Below are positions 41,632 through 57,253 of a stretch of DNA of 64,000 nucleotides, in pieces. The DNA comes from Georgenia satyanarayanai. Its GTDB lineage: Bacteria > Actinomycetota > Actinomycetes > Actinomycetales > Actinomycetaceae. The first letter of the stretch is position 1. The number at the start of each line of letters is the position of its first letter. Position numbers and translations under genes: made by a program. The notes under the pieces were generated by a model, which ran no database searches, was not told the DNA's origin, and was given only the letters and a program-made list of their open reading frames with translations. The DNA lies in contig NZ_JAMBNZ010000003.1 of NCBI RefSeq assembly GCF_023715365.1, forward strand, positions 248,001 through 312,000, in the 5' to 3' direction.

Positions 41632-42669
41632 TCAGAACGCGACGACCGCTCCTTGTGGGGTCTGGGAGGCGTCGGTGTCCGGCTCGGCGGCCTGGCCGAG
41701 GGCGGCGAGGTAGCGCTCGGCGTCCAGTGCGGCCGCGCACCCGGTGCCGGCGGCGGTGATGGCCTGGCGGTAGGTGTGGTCCACGGCGTCCCCGCACGCG
41801 AACACCCCCGGGAGGGTCGTGGCCGTGGATGGCGAGGTGACGACGATGTAGCCGTTCTCGTCGAGGTCGACCTGCCCGGCGAGCATGTTCGTGCGCGGCA
41901 TGTACCCGATGGCGACGAACACCCCGGTGGCGTCCAGCTGGCGCTCCTGGCCGGTGAGGGTGTCGCGCAGGGTGATGCCGGTGACCTTGTCGGTGCCGTG
42001 GATCGCGGTGACCTCGCTGTTCCAGGCGAAGTCGATCTTCGGGTTGGCCATGGCGCGGTCGGCCATGATCTTGGAGGCGCGCAGTTCCTCGCGGCGGTGG
42101 ACGACGGTGACCTTGGAGGCGAATTTGGTGAGGAAGGTGGCCTCCTCCATCGCGGAGTCACCGCCGCCGACGACGATGATGTGCTGCTCGCGGAAGAAGA
42201 ACCCGTCGCAGGTGGCGCAGTAGGACACTCCGCGGCCGGTCATCTCGCTCTCGCCGTCCAGGCCGAGCTCCTTGTAGGCCGAGCCGTTGGCCAGGATCAC
42301 CGCCCGGGCCCGGTAGATGTGACCCTCGGCGGTGGTCACGGTCTTGACATGGGCGGCGAGGTCGACGGAGGTGGCGTCGTCGTAGATGACGGTGGCGCCG
42401 AACTTCTCGGCCTGGGCCTGTATCTTGTCCATGAGCTCGGGGCCCATGACGCCCTCGGGGAACCCTGGGAAGTTCTCTACCTCGGTCGTGTTCATCAGCG
42501 CTCCACCGGCCGTGACGGCGCCGGCGATGATGACCGGGGCGAGGTTCGCGCGGGCGGCGTAGATCGCCGCGGTGTAGCCCGCCGGACCGGAACCGACGAT
42601 GACCACTTCGTGCACGCGACCGGAGTCGGTCTGCTTGGCGGCGGGGGTGAGGCTGCTCAGCTCGATCAT
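41632..42669 (-). CDS. trxB: Thioredoxin reductase (left arm)
   Basis: NADPH-dependent flavoenzyme, 345 residues, that reduces thioredoxin, the likely electron donor of the adjacent ArsC. FAD motif [20 protein letters not shown], redox pair Cys151/Cys154 in [19 protein letters not shown] motif [20 protein letters not shown] and the C-terminal [20 protein letters not shown] are intact. No trxA is in the island, so a chromosomal thioredoxin must be used. About nine in ten residues match the right-arm copy. Confidence 0.94.
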
Positions 42670-42675
42670 CGGGGG

Positions 42676-43086
42676 TCAGGCCTTCGCGGGGAGGAGCTCG
42701 GCCAGTAGGCCCTCGATGCGGCCGCGGATGTCGTCGCGGACCTGGCGGACGGTCTCGATGCCTTGGCCGGCGGGGTCGGTCAGCTCCCAGTCCTCGTAGC
42801 GCACACCGGGGAAGTAGGGACAGACGTCCCCGCAGCCCATGGTGATGACGACGTCGGAGGCTTCCACGGCGTCGGGGGTGAGGATCTTGGGCTTGTTGGC
42901 GGTGATGTCGATGCCGACTTCCTTCATCGCCTCGACGGCGACGGGGTTGATCTGGTCGGCTGGGGCGGACCCGGCGGAGCGGACCTCGACCTGCCCCTGG
43001 GACAGGGCGGTCATGAAGCCGGCGGCCATCTGGGAACGGCCGGCGTTGTGGACGCAGACGAACATGACGCTGGGACGCTGGGACAC
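42676..43086 (-). CDS. arsC: Arsenate reductase, LMW-phosphatase type (left arm)
   Basis: 136-residue cytoplasmic enzyme reducing arsenate to arsenite. The phosphate-binding loop is MFVCVHNAGRSQM with nucleophile Cys11. A second pair, Cys85 and Cys89 in ITMGCGDVCPYFPG, would carry the disulfide relay to thioredoxin; spacing is Cys-x3-Cys. The neighbouring trxB supports thioredoxin coupling over mycothiol. Start GTG. Only three residues differ from the right copy. Confidence 0.93.
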   Translation of the reverse strand: MSQRPSVMFVCVHNAGRSQMAAGFMTALSQGQVEVRSAGSAPADQINPVAVEAMKEVGIDITANKPKILTPDAVEASDVVITMGCGDVCPYFPGVRYEDWELTDPAGQGIETVRQVRDDIRGRIEGLLAELLPAKA

Positions 43087-43097
43087 GGGGGTCTCCT

Positions 43098-43772
43098 TCA
43101 GTGGGTGGGGGTCAGGCGGGGGGCCAGGGTGGTGACCCGGCGGGTGAGGTCGGCCAGTGCCTCGTCGAAGGCCTCGGCGTCACCGGCGGCGACCGGGTCG
43201 GGCACCGACCAGTGGATGTCGATCGGGGTGGTGAGCTCCTCGTGGGCGCGGTCGCACACGCTGATGACCAGGTCACCCAAGCTCAGCACGCCGTCGACGT
43301 GCTGGGGGGCCACGCGCGGCAGGTCCAGGCGGTGGCGGCGGGCCACCTCGAGGGCGACCGGGTGAATCGCCTCGGCGGGGTGGGTGCCGGCCGAGGTGAC
43401 GGGCACCGCACTAGCGCGGCGCCACAGCGCCGCGGCCAGGTGGGAGCGGGCGGAGTTGCGGGTGCAGACGAACACGACGCGGGCCACCGCGCGCTGGTCG
43501 CGCGGGGTGATGTGGTCCAGGGCGCCGGGCACGAGCTGGACGTAGTTCCGGCGCCGGTCGGCCTCGGACCTCTTGCGGCTCACGATGCCCTCGCGCTCCA
43601 GGACACCCAGGTGGTGGGCCACCAGGTTCGACGGCGCGCCCAGGATCTCGGCGAGCTCGGAGGGGGAGGCGTCCCCCAGGCTCAGCACATCGACGATCCG
43701 CAGCCGGGCGGGGTCGGCCAGCGCGGCGTGCAGCCGCGCCCGCCCCTCCACGTCACTCCAGTCAGCGTTCAT
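43098..43772 (-). CDS. ArsR-type regulator fused to LMW-phosphatase/ArsC-like domain (left arm)
   Basis: 224 residues in two parts. Residues 1-92 are an ArsR/SmtB winged helix (LSLGDASPSELAEILGAPSN; VAHHLGVLEREGIVSRKRSE). Residues 97-224 are an LMW-phosphatase fold with P-loop VVFVCTRNSARSHLAAAL (Cys103, Arg109) and an acid loop VPDPVAAGD. The usual CVCDL metalloid site of ArsR is missing; the protein has only two cysteines, 103 and 173. The phosphatase pocket may therefore be the sensor or an enzyme. Its start codon lies inside a palindromic operator. Confidence 0.9.
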   Translation of the reverse strand: MNADWSDVEGRARLHAALADPARLRIVDVLSLGDASPSELAEILGAPSNLVAHHLGVLEREGIVSRKRSEADRRRNYVQLVPGALDHITPRDQRAVARVVFVCTRNSARSHLAAALWRRASAVPVTSAGTHPAEAIHPVALEVARRHRLDLPRVAPQHVDGVLSLGDLVISVCDRAHEELTTPIDIHWSVPDPVAAGDAEAFDEALADLTRRVTTLAPRLTPTH

Positions 43773-43783
43773 TGACTCAATGA
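43769..43783 (-). promoter_or_regulatory. Operator over the start of the fusion gene (left arm)
   Basis: Perfect palindrome TCATTGA-n-TCAATGA whose right arm contains the ATG. A -35-like TAGACA, 17-bp spacer and -10-like CATCAT precede it, putting the transcription start at or next to the ATG (leaderless). The same arrangement recurs at 51021-51035. Confidence 0.7.
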
Positions 43784-43821
43784 TGACTGACTGATTCGCG
43801 ATTGTCTAGCCCCGGTGCGGC

Positions 43822-45279
43822 TCAGGGGCCGAGGAGGGTGAGCCAGCCGGCCAGGGCGAGCAGCGTGACCGCGAGGACGGGGATGGTGAGGACGATGCCG
43901 ACCTTGAAGTAGGTGCCCCAGCCGATTTGCATGCCCTTGCGGTCCAGGACCGAGAGCCACAGGAGGGTGGCGAGTGACCCTATGGGGGTGATCTTGGGGC
44001 CGAGGTCGGCGCCGATGACGGCGGCGTAGGCCATCATCTGCTCGGTGAGCCCGCTGGTTGCGGCGGCCTCGATGCCCAGGGCGGCGATGAGGGTGGTGGG
44101 CATGTTGTTCATCACCGAGGACATCCCCGCCACCAGGAAGCCGGTGCCGGCCGCGGTGGCCAGGCCCCCGTGCTCGGCGATGCCCGCGAGGACCTGACCG
44201 AGGTAGTCGGTCAGGCCCTCGTTGCGCAGGCCGTAGACCACCAGGTACATGCCCAGGCTGAACAGCACGATCTGCCACGGCGCGGACCTCACCACCGACC
44301 ACACCGCGATCGTCGGCTCCGAGGTGGTGATGGTCCCCGCCGGTGCGGGGGTGGTCCTGCCGCCAGGAGCAGAGGTGGTGCCGGGCGAGGGCCGGCCACC
44401 ACCACCGCGCACCGGGACCGTCACCAGGTCGTCGTCGGTGGCGGCGGGACGGATCTGGGCGCGCCGGAAGAGCGGGCGCGGGCGGCGGGCGGCGATGAGC
44501 GCCAGGACGACGGCACACAGGGCGGCCACGGCGGCCACGGGGATCCCGATGGCGTCGGCGGCGAAGTAGCCGACCAGCAGCGCGCCCAGGACGACGACGC
44601 CCGCGCGGAACGTCGTCGGGTCGGTCACCGCCTCGGGCGGGCGACGCAGCGCCGTCACGTCGTAGCGGCCGGGGATGGACTTGCGGAAGAACAGCCGCAG
44701 CACCACCAGGCTCGCGCCCAACGAGACCAGCGCCACGGGCACCATGACCAGGGCGTAGCGGGCGAAGCCGATGCCGAAGAAGTCGGCGATGACGATGTTG
44801 ACGAGGTTGGACACCACGAACGGCAGGCTGGTGGTGTCGGCGATGAAGCCGGTGGCGATGACCAGCCCGAAGGCCACCGCCGGGAAGAACCGCAGCGCCA
44901 GGATCATCTGGAAGACGATCGGGGTCATCACCAGGGCCGCGCCGTCGTTGGCGAACAGCGCCGCCACCGCCGCCCCGAGGACGACGATGAGGTTGAACAG
45001 GGCGCTGCCGTTGCCGCGCGCCCAGCGTGCCACGTGCAGGGCGGCCCACTCGAAGAAGCCGGCCTCGTCCAGGATCGAGCAGATGATGATGACCGCGACG
45101 AAGGTCAGCGTCGCGTTCCACACGATGTCCCACACCACCGGGATGTCACCGAGCTGGACCACCCCGGCGATGAGCGCGACCGCCGCGCCGCCCAGCGCGC
45201 TCCACCCGATACCGAGGCCCTTGGGCTGCCAGATCACCAGGACCAGGGTGGCGAGGAAGATCCCCACGGCTAGCAGCAC
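43822..45279 (-). CDS. arsB: ArsB-type arsenite efflux permease (left arm)
   Basis: 485-residue carrier of the ion-transporter superfamily, ~11 helices. Conserved parts include [40 protein letters not shown] and the C-terminal [20 protein letters not shown] and [21 protein letters not shown] cytoplasmic loop (residues ~255-315) is enriched in Pro, Thr and Gly ([20 protein letters not shown]) and is the part that differs most from the right copy. Start GTG. Exports As(III)/Sb(III). Confidence 0.9.
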
Positions 45280-46870: not shown

Positions 46871-46928
46871 ATTGATGGTTATCGATGAGACCAGCGCAGC
46901 ATGGCAGATCGTATCGACAGACGTCAAT
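46871..46928. promoter_or_regulatory. Divergent ars promoter with two ArsR boxes (left arm)
   Basis: Two inverted 16-base sites, ATTGATGGTTATCGAT (46871-46886) and ATCGACAGACGTCAAT (46913-46928), flank the space between the flavoprotein gene and arsR. Each fits ATTGAy-N-TCGAT. ArsR probably binds both and represses both directions until As(III) binds. Same arrangement at 47878-47935. Confidence 0.75.
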
Positions 46929-46948
46929 GTGTAGGGAATGATGGTGTC

Positions 46949-47326
46949 ATGACGGCGATCCAGGGCACACCCGAGCTTGAGGCAGCCTGCTGCGCCCCGC
47001 TCATCCGCGAACCCCTCGCGGATGCTGAGGCCCGCGATCTCGCGACGATGTTCAAGGCGCTGGCCGACCCTGCTCGCCTGCGTCTGCTCTCCCTCATCGC
47101 CTCTCACCAGGGGGGCGAGGCGTGCGTATGCGACCTCACCGAGCCGGTCGATCTGTCCCAGCCGACCGTCTCTCACCATCTGAAAATCCTCACCGACGCC
47201 GGGCTACTCACTCGCGACAAGCGCGGCAAGTGGGCCTACTACGCCGTCGTCCCCGACGCCCTCGACGCCCTCGGCGAGATCCTTCGGGTCGAACACCAAG
47301 GCAACCGTCCCACCAGCTGCTGCTAA
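46949..47326 (+). CDS. arsR: ArsR arsenite-responsive repressor (left arm)
   Basis: 125-residue winged-helix repressor. HTH region VDLSQPTVSHHLKILTDAGL; the metal-binding helix carries EACVCDLTEP, the CVC pair of As(III) sensors, with extra cysteines near the N terminus (ACCAPL) and at the C-terminal end (SCC). It faces the right-arm arsR tail to tail across 153 bases. About twelve residues differ from the right copy, mainly at both ends. Confidence 0.93.
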   Translation: MTAIQGTPELEAACCAPLIREPLADAEARDLATMFKALADPARLRLLSLIASHQGGEACVCDLTEPVDLSQPTVSHHLKILTDAGLLTRDKRGKWAYYAVVPDALDALGEILRVEHQGNRPTSCC

Positions 47327-50983: not shown

Positions 50984-51020
50984 GCCGACCAGGACTAGAC
51001 AACCATCGGCCAGTCAGTGA

Positions 51021-51035
51021 TCATTGAGTCAATGA
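51021..51035 (+). promoter_or_regulatory. Operator over the start of the fusion gene (right arm)
   Basis: TCATTGA-G-TCAATGA, a perfect 7-bp-arm palindrome including the ATG. Preceded by TAGACA, 17 bases and GATCAT, as in the left arm, so a leaderless transcript is predicted. Confidence 0.7.
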
Positions 51036-51706
51036 ACGCTGACTGGAGTGACGTGGAGGGGCGGGCACGTATGCACGCCGCGCTGGCCGATCCCGCCCGT
51101 CTGCAGATCGTGGACGTACTGAGCCTGGGGGACGCGTCCCCTTCCGAGCTCGCCGAGATCCTCACCGCGCCGTCGAACCTGGTGGCCCACCACCTGGGCG
51201 TGCTCGAGCGCGAGGGCGTCGTGAGCCGCAAGCGGTCCGAGGCGGACCGTCGGCGCAACTACGTCCAGCTCGTGCCCGGCGCCCTGGACCACATCACCCC
51301 GCGCGACCAGCGCGCGGTAGCCCGCGTGGTGTTCGTCTGCACCCGCAACTCGGCCCGCTCCCACCTGGCCGCGGCACTGTGGCGCCGCGCTAGTGCGGTG
51401 CCCGCTACCTCGGCCGGCACCCACCCCGCCGAGGCGATCCACCCCATCGCCCTCGAGGTGGCCCGCCGCCACCGCCTGGACCTGCCCCGCGTGGCACCCC
51501 AGCACGTGAGTGAAGTGCTGAGCATGGGCGACCTGGTCATCAGCGTGTGCGACCGCGCCCACGAGGAGCTCACCACCCCGATCGACATCCACTGGTCGGT
51601 ACCCGACCCCGTCGCCGCCGGCGACGCCGAGGCCTTCGACGAGGCGCTGGCCGACCTCACCCGCCGGGTCACCACCCTGGCCCCCCGCCTGACCCCCACC
51701 CACTGA
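51032..51706 (+). CDS. ArsR-type regulator fused to LMW-phosphatase/ArsC-like domain (right arm)
   Basis: 224 residues; about nine differ from the left copy. The P-loop FVCTRNSARSHLAAAL, Cys173-equivalent (ISVCDRAHEEL) and the absence of the CVC metal site are shared. The ATG equivalent to the left start is used; an in-frame GTG five codons upstream lies in the operator. Confidence 0.9.
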   Translation: MNADWSDVEGRARMHAALADPARLQIVDVLSLGDASPSELAEILTAPSNLVAHHLGVLEREGVVSRKRSEADRRRNYVQLVPGALDHITPRDQRAVARVVFVCTRNSARSHLAAALWRRASAVPATSAGTHPAEAIHPIALEVARRHRLDLPRVAPQHVSEVLSMGDLVISVCDRAHEELTTPIDIHWSVPDPVAAGDAEAFDEALADLTRRVTTLAPRLTPTH

Positions 51707-51717
51707 AGGAGACCCCC

Positions 51718-52128
51718 GTGTCCCAGCGTCCCAGTGTCATGTTCGTCTGCGTCCACAACGCCGGCCGTTCCCAGATGGCCGCCGGCTTCATGACCGCCCT
51801 GTCCCAGGGGCAGGTCGAGGTCCGCTCCGCCGGGTCCGCCCCAGCCGACCAGATCAACCCCGTCGCCGTCGAGGCGATGGCCGAGGTCGGCATCGACATC
51901 ACCGCCAACAAGCCCAAGATCCTCACCCCCGACGCCGTGGAGGCCTCCGACGTCGTCATCACCATGGGCTGCGGGGACGTCTGCCCCTTCTTCCCGGGTG
52001 TGCGCTACGAGGACTGGGAGCTGACCGACCCCGCCGGCCAAGGCATCGAGACCGTCCGCCAGGTCCGCGACGACATCCACGGCCGGATCGAGGGCCTGCT
52101 GGCCGAGCTCCTCCCCGCGAAGGCCTGA
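51718..52128 (+). CDS. arsC: Arsenate reductase, LMW-phosphatase type (right arm)
   Basis: 136 residues, GTG start, nearly the same as the left ArsC (changes at residues ~54, 91 and 118). Cys11, Cys85 and Cys89 are conserved. It follows the fusion gene by 11 bases with AAGGAG before the start. Confidence 0.93.
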   Translation: MSQRPSVMFVCVHNAGRSQMAAGFMTALSQGQVEVRSAGSAPADQINPVAVEAMAEVGIDITANKPKILTPDAVEASDVVITMGCGDVCPFFPGVRYEDWELTDPAGQGIETVRQVRDDIHGRIEGLLAELLPAKA

Positions 52129-53169: not shown

Positions 53170-53233
53170 ACCACGGCGCTCGGTACCCGGGGCGGGCGCG
53201 GGCGGCGATGAAGGGTCTTCGTATGCTGGCGCG

Positions 53234-54217
53234 GTGTCGTTGCCGCCCTTGATCCGAGCGATAGAGCGCCACCAGGTCGTTCTGTATCTGCTGGCGATCG
53301 CTGGTGGAGTCGTCCTTGGCTGGTCGCTGCCCGATGTTGCCGAACCTCTTGAGTACGCCATCACTCCCGTGCTCGGGCTGTTGCTGTTCGCCACGTTCCT
53401 GGGGATCCCGTTCTCGGCGATCGGTCAGGCCGTGCGCGATACGCGCTTCATGGCCACGATCCTGATCCTGAACTTCGTCATCGTTCCCGCCGTGGTCTTT
53501 GCCCTGTCGCGGTTCGTGGCCGACAGCCCGGCCCTGCTCGTGGGCGTGCTGCTAGTGCTGCTGACGCCATGCATCGATTACGTGATCGTCTTCGCCGGGC
53601 TGGCCGGCGGCTCCAGTGAACGTCTGCTCGCTGCAGCGCCATTGCTCATGCTGGCCCAGATGCTGTTACTGCCCCTCTACCTGCTCCTCTTCGTCGGCCC
53701 GGAGCTCGTCTCGGGCATCGAGCCCGGCCCCTTCCTCGAAGCGCTCATCGGGCTCATCATCGTCCCCCTCACCCTGGCGGCCTTAATTCAGTGGTGGTCC
53801 CGAAAGCAGGCAGCCGGCAAGGCATTCACGGCCGTTGTGCAAGCGATGATGGTTCCGTTGATGATGGCGACGCTGGCTGTGGTGATCGCATCGCAGATCC
53901 ACGCAGTGGGACAAGAAGTCAGTGCGCTGCTGGCGGTCGTCCCTCTCTACGTGGCCTTTCTGGTGGTGATGGTTCCCGTCGGGATGGCGTGCGCGCGAGT
54001 CGCACGGCTCGATGCAGGAAGCACCAGAGCGGTGATCTTCAGCGGCGCCACTCGAAACTCGCTGGTGGTACTCCCACTGGCACTAGCACTGCCGGCGCCC
54101 CTGGCTCTGGTTCCGCTCGTCGTGGTCACCCAGACCATGATCGAGCTCCTCGGCATGGTGATCTACGTGAAGGCCATTCCACGACTGGTCACCTCGGAGC
54201 CGATCCTGCGGAACTGA
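53234..54217 (+). CDS. ACR3-like arsenite permease (BASS superfamily)
   Basis: 327-residue membrane protein with ten predicted helices, starting at GTG. The pattern LLLFATFLGIPFSAIGQAVR, VLLVLLTPCIDYVIVFAGLA (a Cys in helix 4 as in ACR3) and IFSGATRNSLVVLPLALALP are those of arsenite carriers of the ACR3/arsenical-resistance type. It differs in GC and codon use from the ars arms (more T/A), and sits 65 bases after the right trxB. A bile-acid:Na+ symporter relative is the alternative. Confidence 0.75.
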   Translation: MSLPPLIRAIERHQVVLYLLAIAGGVVLGWSLPDVAEPLEYAITPVLGLLLFATFLGIPFSAIGQAVRDTRFMATILILNFVIVPAVVFALSRFVADSPALLVGVLLVLLTPCIDYVIVFAGLAGGSSERLLAAAPLLMLAQMLLLPLYLLLFVGPELVSGIEPGPFLEALIGLIIVPLTLAALIQWWSRKQAAGKAFTAVVQAMMVPLMMATLAVVIASQIHAVGQEVSALLAVVPLYVAFLVVMVPVGMACARVARLDAGSTRAVIFSGATRNSLVVLPLALALPAPLALVPLVVVTQTMIELLGMVIYVKAIPRLVTSEPILRN

Positions 54218-54257
54218 GCATCGAGCCTGGTGACCTCTCACGGTCGTTCTGGTTTCG

Positions 54258-54854
54258 TCAGAGACCAAACGCTCCGCCGCTGACGAGGATGAAGATGCCC
54301 AGGCCGATCAGGACGATGGGGAACAGGATGTGTTCCCAGCGTTCGAGGACTTCGGCGATCGGCGGGCGGGTGGCGACGAACCTGGCGAGTACGACCAGGA
54401 CCGCGACGAGCGCGAGGAAGACGAGGCAGTAAGCGACCACTGCGAGGGGCTCCACGCTCAGGAAGACGGGGACATAGACACCGATGTTGTCTCCGCCGTT
54501 GGCGAAGGTGACTCCTGCGACAGTCCACGCGCTGACCTTCTTGCCCGCGACCTTGGCGTCATCGTCGTCATCGCCTCCGCGCCAGGCTTGCCATGCGGCC
54601 CAGAACCCGAGCGCTAGGGGAATGAGCCCGAAGTACGGGATAGCTGCTGAGGGCAGGAATGCTCCGGCCCCGATAGTCACCAACACAGCAGCCCCGAGGA
54701 TGCCGGCGAACCCCAGGTACTGGCCGACCAGGATGCGGGTGGTCGTCCCGCGTTGGCCCGCGCCACGGGCGAAGAACAGGGAGAGCACGATGATGTCGTC
54801 GATGTTGGTCGCGATGAACAGACCGATTGCCTGCAGGGCCGTAGCCAGGATCAC
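54258..54854 (-). CDS. cadD: Cadmium resistance transporter, CadD family
   Basis: 198-residue membrane protein, GTG start. Family signs are ATNIDDIIVLSLFFARG near the N terminus and FANGGDNIGVYVPVFLS in the middle; both acid-Asn motifs are hallmarks of CadD/LysE-like metal exporters. Five helices with a charged linker (GGDDDDDAKVAGKK). It overlaps the cmtR stop by four bases, so it is made with its regulator. Confidence 0.87.
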   Translation of the reverse strand: MILATALQAIGLFIATNIDDIIVLSLFFARGAGQRGTTTRILVGQYLGFAGILGAAVLVTIGAGAFLPSAAIPYFGLIPLALGFWAAWQAWRGGDDDDDAKVAGKKVSAWTVAGVTFANGGDNIGVYVPVFLSVEPLAVVAYCLVFLALVAVLVVLARFVATRPPIAEVLERWEHILFPIVLIGLGIFILVSGGAFGL

Positions 54855-55210
54855 GCGCCCGCCTCTGCGTCGTCGCATCCGGGCACCGAGCAGGCGGGAT
54901 CGATGCACGGGGCGTTCTCGTCCACCGCGAGGGTGACGTCAACCAGGGCGCTCAGCGCCCGCGCTAGGTGCGGATCGGCGATTTCATAGCGCGTCTTGCG
55001 GCCCTCGGGTTCGGCGACCACGATCCCGCAGTCGCGCAGGCACGCCAGATGGTTGGACACGTTAGAGCGTGTCAGGTCCAGATCGCGGGCCAGCTCTGCC
55101 GGGTAGGTCGGCCGGTCGAGCAACGTCAGGATGATCCGGGACCTGGTCGGGTCGGCCAGTGCGCGGCCCAGCCGGTTCATCACGGCCAGGCGAGAAGCAA
55201 TAGTCAGCAC
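54851..55210 (-). CDS. cmtR: CmtR-like Cd(II)/Pb(II) sensing repressor
   Basis: 119-residue ArsR-family repressor close to mycobacterial CmtR. The three metal ligands known from CmtR are at the same residue numbers: Cys57 and Cys61 in NHLACLRDCGIVV and Cys102 in NAPCIDPACSVPGC. HTH is DLDLTRSNVSNHLACLR. The GTG start lies ~8 bases after a -10 box, so its mRNA is probably leaderless. Confidence 0.9.
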   Translation of the reverse strand: MLTIASRLAVMNRLGRALADPTRSRIILTLLDRPTYPAELARDLDLTRSNVSNHLACLRDCGIVVAEPEGRKTRYEIADPHLARALSALVDVTLAVDENAPCIDPACSVPGCDDAEAGA

Positions 55211-55217
55211 ACGCTGA

Positions 55218-55248
55218 ACTATACAGCAGAGACTGAACCGTTTTCAGT
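55218..55248 (-). promoter_or_regulatory. cmtR promoter and operator
   Basis: Minus-strand -10 TATAGT (55218-55223) and -35-like CTGAAA (55242-55247), 18 bases apart. An inverted repeat ACTGAA/TTCAGT (55232-55248) lies across the -35, as expected for CmtR repression. Confidence 0.65.
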
Positions 55249-55358
55249 GAGGTCCGAGGCGGTCAGGCGCCTCTGATCTCGCATTCCGCATGCCAGCATC
55301 GCTCACCGGGACACTCTTCGGCATTTGGAGCGTAGGCACTGCGCCAGGTCACGTGCGC

Positions 55359-55748
55359 TCACAGATAGTGGCAGACGGTCGTGGCCTTGCAGTTGCTGGG
55401 GTCGATGATGGCGGCGCCGTCGCGAAGGTGGGCGACGGTGTGTCGCAGTGCCTGCAGGTCGGCGATCTGGCGGTCCAGATCGCCCAGGCGGGTCTCGAGC
55501 AGGTCTTGCACGTGCTGGCAGGGCGCGACTCCGGCGTCGCGGATGTCGAGCACCTCACGGATCTGGGCGAGAGTGAGCCCAGCGGTGCGGCTGCGGCGAA
55601 TGAAGTCCAGCCGCGTCAGGGTCTCAGGGGCGTAGTCGCGGTAACCGTTGGGGGTGCGCTCGGGCGGGGGTAGGAGGCCGGCCTTCTCATAGAAGCGCAG
55701 CGTCTTGGTCGTGGTGCCACTGGCCTCGGCCAGCTCACCGATCCGCAC
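55359..55748 (-). CDS. merR: MerR-family heavy-metal regulator
   Basis: 129 residues. Winged HTH MRIGELAEASGTTTKTLRFY and wing PNGYRDYAPETLTRL are canonical, followed by the dimer helix. Metal-ligand candidates are Cys77 (APCQHVQDLL), Cys120 and Cys126 (DPSNCKATTVCHYL). The pattern is not the classic Cys82-117-126 of Tn501 MerR, so Hg(II) is inferred from the neighbouring merA rather than from the ligands. Divergent from merA across a MerR-type promoter. Confidence 0.85.
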   Translation of the reverse strand: MRIGELAEASGTTTKTLRFYEKAGLLPPPERTPNGYRDYAPETLTRLDFIRRSRTAGLTLAQIREVLDIRDAGVAPCQHVQDLLETRLGDLDRQIADLQALRHTVAHLRDGAAIIDPSNCKATTVCHYL

Positions 55749-55783
55749 AGTGACCCATTGCTCTGCTCTTGTCCATGTTCACC

Positions 55784-55815
55784 TTGACCTTCCCCTGCAC
55801 TGGAACGTCCAGTGT
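55784..55815 (+). promoter_or_regulatory. MerR-type promoter of merA
   Basis: -35 TTGACC and a -10-like CAGTGT with a long 20-base spacer, the feature by which MerR activators work. Within it lies the dyad GACCTTCC/GGAACGTC (one mismatch, 55786-55809). Confidence 0.7.
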
Positions 55816-55852
55816 GGTCGCTGAAGACGTGTAACGCGAAGGAGGGTGCGAA

Positions 55853-57253
55853 ATGGGTGAGGACTACGACATCGATCTGGCCGTGATCGGGTCAGGAGGC
55901 GCGGCCATGTCGGCCGCCATCGCGGCCAGCCAGGCCGGTAAGAGCGTCGTGCTGATCGAGCGCGGCGTCCTGGGCGGTACGTGCGTGAACATCGGCTGTG
56001 TGCCGTCCAAGACACTCCTGGCGGCCGCCGGAGCGCGGCACGCCGCGCTCACCAACCCTTTCCAGGGCGCCCCAACGTCAGTCGCGCCGGTGAATCTCGG
56101 CGATCTGGTGGCCCAGAAGGACGCCCTGATCGAGCGCCTGCGCGATGCGAAGTACGCCGACGTGGCCGCCGCCTATGGCTTCGAGGTCCGCCCGGGCCAG
56201 GCCACCTTTCTGGACAGGGAGCACCTGGCCGTCGACGGCCAGGTGCTGCGGGCCCGGGCCTATCTGGTCGCTACCGGCTCCACCCCCGCTGTCCCGGACG
56301 TGGCCGGCCTTGATTCCGTGGACTGGCTGACGTCCACCACGGCGATGCAGCTGACCGAGCTGCCCGAGTCCCTGGTCGTTATCGGTGGCGGGTACGTCGG
56401 GATGGAGCAGGCCCAGCTGTTCGCCCACCTCGGCGCCCGGGTGTCGGTGGTCGGGCGTCTGGCGCCCCACGCCGAGCCGGAGCTGGCCCAGGGCCTTCGG
56501 GAACTCTTCGCCGACGACGGCATCACCGTGGTGGAAGAGCACGCTAGTGCGGTGGCCCACGAGACCGGCACCACAGGAGAGGTGGTGGTGACCACCGTCT
56601 CGGGCGAGCAGCTGCACGGCGCGCGGGTCCTGGTGGCCACCGGACGCCTGCCCCGCATCGACGGCCTGGACCTGGCCGCTGCCGGTGTGGACGTGGACGA
56701 GCGGGGCTTTGTCGTGGTCGACGAAGCCCAGCGCACCTCCAACCCCCGCGTCTACGCCGCCGGTGACGTTTCGGGGGCTCCCCAATACGTCTACGTCGCC
56801 GCAGCTGGCGGTCGGGCCGCTGCGCTCAACGCCCTGACCGATGACGGGGACCCGCCGGCAGCTCGAGTCGACTACGCCGGCTTGCCAGCGGTCGTGTTCA
56901 CCCGCCCCCAGCTGGCCTCGGCGGGACTGACCGAGGACGAGGCCCTCGCCCGAGGGTACGCGTGCGACTGCCGCGTCCTGAACCTGTCCGACGTCCCCCG
57001 GGCGCTGGTCCAGCACGACACCCGCGGCGCGGTGAAACTCGTCGCCGACGCCGAGAGCGGCAAGGTCCTGGGCGTGCACGCCCTGGCCGACGGCGCCGGG
57101 GAGATCATGCTGGCGGCCACCTACGCCATCAAGTCCGGCATGACCGTTGACGATCTGGCCGACACCTGGGCGCCGTACCTGACCATGGCCGAGAGCCTGC
57201 GCATCGTGGCCGGCCTCTTCCGCAACCAAATGCCGACGTCTTGCTGTGCCTGA
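55853..57253 (+). CDS. merA: Mercuric reductase
   Basis: 466-residue flavoprotein that reduces Hg(II) to volatile Hg(0) with NADPH. FAD motif LAVIGSGGAAMSAAIAASQA, active-site Cys44/Cys49 (GGTCVNIGCVPSK), NADPH motif LVVIGGGYVGMEQAQLFAHL and the C-terminal vicinal cysteines Cys464/Cys465 (MPTSCCA) all identify MerA. No N-terminal metallochaperone domain is present. A strong AAGGAGG precedes the ATG. No merT, merP or merB is nearby. Confidence 0.94.
   Translation: MGEDYDIDLAVIGSGGAAMSAAIAASQAGKSVVLIERGVLGGTCVNIGCVPSKTLLAAAGARHAALTNPFQGAPTSVAPVNLGDLVAQKDALIERLRDAKYADVAAAYGFEVRPGQATFLDREHLAVDGQVLRARAYLVATGSTPAVPDVAGLDSVDWLTSTTAMQLTELPESLVVIGGGYVGMEQAQLFAHLGARVSVVGRLAPHAEPELAQGLRELFADDGITVVEEHASAVAHETGTTGEVVVTTVSGEQLHGARVLVATGRLPRIDGLDLAAAGVDVDERGFVVVDEAQRTSNPRVYAAGDVSGAPQYVYVAAAGGRAAALNALTDDGDPPAARVDYAGLPAVVFTRPQLASAGLTEDEALARGYACDCRVLNLSDVPRALVQHDTRGAVKLVADAESGKVLGVHALADGAGEIMLAATYAIKSGMTVDDLADTWAPYLTMAESLRIVAGLFRNQMPTSCCA

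Follow-up and report, generated by a model that had tools for sequence, protein, structure and literature searches.

An ArsR–arsenate reductase-like fusion protein without the recycling cysteine as a candidate arsenate-triggered autorepressor in a duplicated ars operon

Proteins that unite an ArsR-type regulator and an arsenate reductase in one chain are already known, and in the 2010 work of Achour-Rokbani on Microbacterium sp. A33, ArsRC2 is said to repress the operon. In the available portions of the respective sources, ArsR-ArsC fusions form the actinobacterial clusters C4 and C7 (PMC6514093) and are listed for L. ferriphilum, Microbacterium and Sinorhizobium (PMC6205960), the expression of an arsRC gene was followed (PMC4443643), and an ArsRC reportedly enhances arsenate sensing (Chen et al., 2022). 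Since such fusions have been published, the protein analyzed here is a variant within a known group. According to the accessible part of a review, ars repressors sense arsenite, the product of reduction, while arsenate sensing itself is less clear; the four As(III)-responsive ArsR site types named there each contain three cysteines (PMC11868830). TtSmtB of Thermus thermophilus, an ArsR/SmtB regulator, has been proposed as an arsenate sensor in the portion of the report available (PMC5658604).

The fusion gene lies in a window (the whole stretch of DNA analyzed, 64,000 nucleotides) that carries, between positions 41632 and 53169, an inverted duplication of a whole ars operon, at whose center stand two divergent arsR copies of the CVC type (Table 1). 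Each arm has the gene order flavoprotein, arsB, fusion, arsC and thioredoxin-reductase-like gene, and the first flavoprotein is ArsO-like, far under the NCBIfam cut-off. Because the CVC-bearing ArsR is divergent from the operon, an arsenite-type regulator is already present at the locus. The region adjoining arm 2 (53225-57253) encodes an SBF-like transporter (Pfam) and, by appearance, a CadD-like protein with an ArsR/CadC-like regulator as well as a MerR-type regulator with a mercuric-reductase-like flavoprotein, so that it looks like a metal-resistance island.

The original prediction of a fusion between ArsR and an LMW phosphatase was confirmed by Pfam, which placed HTH_20/HTH_5 at residues 18-65 and LMWPc at residues 99-216 of a single ORF. 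The arm 1 protein consists of the HTH (about residues 1-80), a linker (81-97) and an arsenate-reductase-like domain (98-224) with the nucleophile C103, R109, C173, L180 at the C89 position and D192-P193. The AlphaFold model (pLDDT 92.2, pTM 0.87) displays the helices and wing of a winged HTH domain and a coil at 81-93, with the ArsR C-terminal helix missing. As the fold searches listed the enzyme half, the HTH half is identified through Pfam and the model. The protein has the makeup of an ArsRC: according to Pfam, the model and the fold search, one polypeptide carries an ArsR-type HTH and, C-terminal to it, an LMWP arsenate-reductase-like domain, and its gene lies inside an ars cluster.

Table 1. 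Coordinates of the ars genes and the predicted regulatory elements in the window.
Feature	Position	Strand	Remarks
ArsR-LMWP fusion, arm 1	43098..43772	-	224 aa; reported ORF is real
ArsR-LMWP fusion, arm 2	51032..51706	+	96% identical to arm 1 copy
arsC-like free-standing arsenate reductase, arm 1	42676..43086	-	LMWPc; under NCBIfam cut-offs; next downstream of fusion
Thioredoxin-reductase-like flavoprotein, arm 1	41632..42669	-	labeled by look
arsB arsenite efflux pump, arm 1	43822..45279	-	directly upstream of fusion
Canonical ArsR with CVC motif	46901..47326	+	divergent from flavoprotein-arsB side
arsC-like gene, arm 2	51718..52128	+	start by analogy with arm 1
Dyad operator (predicted), arm 1	43759..43793	.	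centre 43776, overlaps start codon; inner core 43769-43783; arms 43759-43775/43777-43793, 82% complementary
Dyad operator (predicted), arm 2	51010..51046	.	centre 51028; arms 51010-51027/51029-51046, 89% complementary
Putative -35-like TAGACA, arm 1	43803..43808	-	stands where TTGAC is in 61/80 rows

As had been predicted, translation of the ORF yielded C103 in the P-loop (FVCTRNSARS) and C173 (SVCDRAHEEL) as the only cysteines of the whole protein, both of which are retained in the arm 2 copy. The expectation that the DNA-binding half is devoid of a CVC motif also held, the fusion having DASPSEL at the place that corresponds to EACVCDL of the co-resident canonical ArsR. Conservation was assessed in 82 aligned rows, comprising the best 80 of 176 confirmed relatives from a scan of genome contigs (loci designated by L-numbers) and the two window copies; some rows are mutually related, L069 and L071 being from one strain and L073 and L074 looking alike. 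C103 is kept in 81 of these rows, the exception being L025 with Ser, and C173 in all 82. Exactly two cysteines are present in 75 rows, and the HTH half (before residue 97) has no cysteine in 78 rows and one in each of the other four. Since the seed peptides of the contig scan included VCDRAHEE and were thus biased toward C173, a seed-free check was made by searching 296 genomes from the phylum (G-numbers) with a profile; 38 of them contained full-length proteins (over 220 bits). The resulting further set of 37 rows (G000 and G247 left out, G031 represented twice) retains both C103 and C173 throughout, with HTH-half cysteines in six rows; L138 has two.

The cysteine rate of the 835 ORFs from the loci and the window predicts 2.2 cysteines per 224 aa, and the two-cysteine count was therefore rejected as evidence in itself. 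Judging from the alignments, the departure from chance lies in the retention of these two positions across the homologues, with almost no cysteines in the remainder. Because each of the four As(III) site types (types 1, 2 and 3 and the ArArsR type) needs three cysteines, none of them fits the HTH of the window protein. The two near-invariant thiols could instead act as a direct As(III) sensor, in which arsenite or a methylated form bridges C103 and C173, perhaps together with a non-cysteine third ligand, so that the DNA is released. In the C89L structure the equivalent thiols are disulfide-bonded, as its title states, and in the case of SpArsR two cysteines are enough for MAs(III) according to the accessible part of the review (PMC11868830). 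We nevertheless regard such bridging as improbable, as the As(III)-responsive ArsR types named in that part use three cysteines where the fusion has two, and the kept P-loop, Asp-Pro and HWS exceed the needs of a dithiol site.

When a profile of 79 rows was aligned with pI258 ArsC, C103 fell on C10, C173 on C82 and position 180 on C89. Of the features of a thioredoxin-coupled reductase, the CX5RS P-loop with its nucleophile and the resolving cysteine C82 (C173) are present, while the recycling cysteine C89 is absent, being Leu180 in the window protein. Position 180 is Leu in 52 of the 82 rows and Cys in none, and a cysteine within 15 residues after C173 was found in 0/82 rows and in one of the 37 further rows. 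In a fold search with the model, the enzyme half matched pI258 ArsC best (1ljl; Z 18.5, rmsd 1.9 A, 123 aligned residues), with 1lk0, entitled 'Disulfide intermediate of C89L' (Z 17.9, rmsd 1.9 A, 123 aligned), in fifth place, rows within Z 1 of each other counting as tied. Given that the engineered C89L mutant of ArsC was crystallized as a disulfide intermediate, as the title of 1lk0 indicates, the fusion domain resembles a naturally stalled enzyme. From its sequences, the fusion family looks like a natural C89-less enzyme, with the window protein as the C89L form.

Wzb and YwlE, which share the LMW-PTP fold, also match the fusion model at Z about 16-18, as would be expected if the protein were a protein phosphatase or another regulator that merely sits in ars operons. 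Among solved structures, however, those closest in sequence are arsenate reductases, and the neighbors are arsenic genes, and we consider this explanation very improbable. In a 77-row tree with few columns, unsettled bootstrap values and poor resolution among the fused rows, a branch (97/92) separated the free ArsC and unfused LMWP rows from the fused domains. The idea that the fused domain is a recent copy of the adjoining ArsC was thus not supported.

The P-loop, Asp-Pro and HWS are conserved in the 79-row alignment, with N106, R109 and S110 invariant and C103 kept in at least 90% of the rows. The P-loop conservation would also suit a non-redox oxyanion sensor that binds arsenate or phosphate reversibly and for which cysteine chemistry is secondary. 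Phosphate-transport-like genes (labels partly by look) occur near the fusions of L017, L028, L031, L038, L041 and L042, pstSCAB is annotated divergent from the fusion on a Mycolicibacterium pallens plasmid (L161), and phn/pst genes lie beside L147, all of which is consistent with such a sensor. On the other hand, C173 is unexpected in an oxyanion cradle, yet it is kept in 119/119 rows, and the phosphate level in cells is high, so that we judge this reading unlikely.

Neighboring genes of the 80 loci were labeled by tblastn with reference proteins, partly by look. A separate arsC was found within about 6 kb (less at contig ends) in 70 of the loci; an MIP aquaporin and an ArsR resembling the CVC-bearing reference were each found in 44. 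Of the 10 loci that have no arsC nearby, five (L020, L024, L043, L048 and L061) belong to genomes in which a strong ArsC is encoded elsewhere. In the other five genomes, the search for a strong free ArsC returned none at E 1e-8 for L034 and L044, a weak separate match only for L027, and the fusion itself only for L054 and L058; in these genomes the fusion may therefore have to reduce arsenate. ChrA, a chromate transporter (PF02417), is encoded divergent from the fusion in L044 (4754-5953), with a pyridine-nucleotide-disulfide-reductase-like gene behind it, and L043 contains an ORF that by appearance resembles this transporter. The position of ChrA implies that the signal may not always be arsenic.

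The five of 80 loci in genomes without a strong free ArsC would fit a bifunctional, self-regulating arsenate reductase whose turnover would use mycothiol, mycoredoxin or thioredoxin and which would contribute to detoxification. The nucleophile, Arg, Asp-Pro and the resolving Cys are all kept, the mycothiol-dependent Cg_ArsC2 described in the available part of PMC6514093 lacks a cysteine opposite C173 in the profile alignment, and both sensing and detoxification are ascribed to an ArsRC in the title of Chen et al. (2022). A full enzyme of this kind, which was one of the two options of the original prediction, is rather unlikely because the equivalent of C89 is missing in 82/82 rows and most loci already have a separate arsC close by.

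The 15-bp palindrome has two matches in the window, both exact, at the inner core of the arm 1 dyad and at 51021-51035, whereas shuffles gave a mean of 0.18 matches at up to three mismatches, with 3 of 100 shuffles reaching two. It forms the core of a longer dyad of 31-37 bp that spans the presumed -10 and the start codon. The upstream regions are strikingly alike across the 80 loci, with the consensus CTCAGT-N4-ATTGA(S)TCAAT-N4-ACTGAG, the last arm of which is located within the first codons, and with TTGAC 17-18 bases upstream in 61 rows. Since the ATG follows directly or closely after the presumed -10, the transcript of the fusion gene is probably leaderless. A scan of dyad centers ranked the start-region center at the top (0.62, runner-up 0.49). 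Two of 18 dyad position pairs beat their shuffled partners (p 0.01 and 0.02, uncorrected and with relatedness not controlled); the remaining pairs vary too little, as the inner ones do, or fail to beat the shuffles.

An operator matrix detected 79 main sites above a score of 18 in the 941,163 bases of the 80 loci. No second site above this score was present in these bases, and shuffled loci gave no site at all above it. In the source genome, exact matches occur at the two fusion genes only, and one further match with three mismatches is equaled in number by the reversed control. A regulon beyond the own promoter was rejected on these grounds. As the operator was placed with a by-eye consensus, which favors agreement, the 37 further rows served as a check: 19 scored above 18 and 18 lower, compared with 64 of 2000 segments of 210 bases drawn at random from the loci in question, true sites included. 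Nine of the 19 have no start codon at the matching place, and the operator pattern is therefore not a by-product of coding. The predicted operator is thus well supported, and the presence of a conserved dyad at this promoter suggests that the fusion most likely represses its own promoter. Given also that a three-cysteine site is not possible in the HTH, that C103 and C173 are near-invariant and that the neighbors are mostly arsenic genes, sensing by the phosphatase pocket, the other option of the original prediction, is the best-supported reading.

Within the phylum, the profile search of 296 genomes also revealed a second class of fusions, in 8 genomes at about 125-175 bits. Six of the 8 carry a cysteine at the position of C89, and the model of one member (pLDDT 85) contains the ArsR C-terminal helix at 78-92. 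A palindrome peculiar to this class lies upstream of L124, L125 and L127, near ATACATCAAT-N4-ATTGATGTAT in L124. In L131 and L132 the two parts are separate proteins: an ArsR carrying a CNC motif is encoded divergently from an LMWP protein in which all three cysteines are retained, and this pair may represent such a system in its unfused form. L123 (1971-2696) encodes a fusion-like protein in which the nucleophile is retained, the P-loop is altered and Ser stands in place of C173; this protein may be a sensor that has degenerated.

Searches of plasmids yielded 22 loci, 17 of which were counted as distant alphaproteobacterial ArsR-LMWP fusions; L146, L160 and L161 are actinobacterial members, and the arsR annotated in L144 and L165 stops short of the phosphatase half. 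One of the plasmids (L145, CP070277.1), named Dysgonomonadaceae bacterium zrk40, is probably mis-assigned, as its length equals that of a Martelella lutilitoris plasmid (both 166,348). The gapdh-arsJ pair, which confers arsenate resistance according to the available part of PMC6205960, comes after 14 of the 17 fusions read, a count favored by the choice of 10 of the 17 for their likeness to one gapdh-arsJ fusion. An AfArsR-like three-cysteine HTH site is present in eight of the 17, absent in seven and partial in two. Among the 14 gapdh-arsJ fusions, seven keep this site and six lack the AfArsR-type cysteines; L168, one of these six, has three other cysteines in the HTH half instead. In the tree of the distant fusions, which contains one long branch, the lack of the HTH site needs two changes, and these changes may be losses. 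It seems that the absence of an arsenite site in enzyme-fused repressors arose more than once while the catalytic pair was kept. The P-loop cysteine is present in every one of the 17, and so are the C173 equivalent and, eight residues on, a C89-like third cysteine. Because of this third cysteine they do not support a stalled disulfide, but their sequences speak for sensing by the enzyme half.

Our preferred reading, to which we give slightly less than an even chance, is that the fusion is an autorepressor released when arsenate drives the formation of a C103-C173 disulfide in the fused arsenate-reductase-like pocket. Alongside the architecture, cysteine pattern, predicted fold, conserved dyad and gene contexts found here, we infer DNA binding and repression by the fusion, a redox trigger with arsenate as the inducing ion and the disulfide as the signal, and coupling of this signal to the DNA. 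The reduced fusion would bind the dyad over its own -10 and start region and shut off fusion, arsC and the thioredoxin-reductase-like gene; in other genomes, a divergent aquaporin, arsC or pst gene would probably be repressed as well. Arsenate would then enter the P-loop and be attacked by C103, and C173 would displace arsenite, leaving the C103-C173 disulfide. Since the recycling cysteine is replaced and its loop shortened, the domain would stall at this stage, as the engineered C89L ArsC does, and its altered conformation would loosen DNA binding until a cellular reductase resets the fusion.

Several observations weigh against this autorepressor. The disulfide might be reduced too fast for signaling, L025 has Ser at position 103, half of the 10 loci lacking a nearby arsC belong to genomes without a strong free ArsC, and HTH-half cysteines occur in some of the further rows. 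The chromate transporter divergent from the L044 fusion, the retention of the three-cysteine HTH site in half of the gapdh-arsJ fusions and the three other cysteines of L168 point in the same direction. More tentative, and somewhat more apt to be wrong than right, is the wider proposal of a single-shot enzymatic sensor, which would reduce one arsenate and lock itself as the C103-C173 disulfide owing to the natural loss of the recycling cysteine, together with a shift of sensing from HTH cysteines to a fused enzyme that would have occurred separately in actinobacteria and in alphaproteobacterial gapdh-arsJ operons. If true, the first half of the arsenate reductase reaction would serve as the trigger, which would make the fusion repressor a clear example of an enzyme converted into a switch and a ready part for an arsenate biosensor.

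The available portions of the literature searched contain no description of the missing C89 equivalent, of a cysteine-free HTH or of this operator, some of which Achour-Rokbani (2010) and Chen et al. (2022) may contain. Like the ArsRC fusions of Microbacterium sp. A33, clusters C4 and C7, Leptospirillum ferriphilum and Chen et al. (2022), the window fusion combines ArsR and ArsC in one protein and is encoded in an ars cluster; the lack of an As(III) site in the HTH and of a C89-type cysteine, seen in the window fusion, is not described for them in the accessible parts of the sources. With the ArsC of pI258 and B. subtilis it shares the predicted fold, the P-loop cysteine, the resolving C82 and the Asp-Pro, whereas it lacks C89, has a shortened loop and carries a fused HTH. 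R773, AfArsR, CgArsR and ArArsR likewise have a winged-helix domain and a palindrome at their own promoter, but the fusion has no possible three-cysteine site and, in the model, no C-terminal helix. TtSmtB is similar to it as an ArsR/SmtB-type regulator for which arsenate sensing has been proposed; unlike the fusion, it is described in the available portion of its report as an unfused protein with three cysteines in the HTH protein itself.
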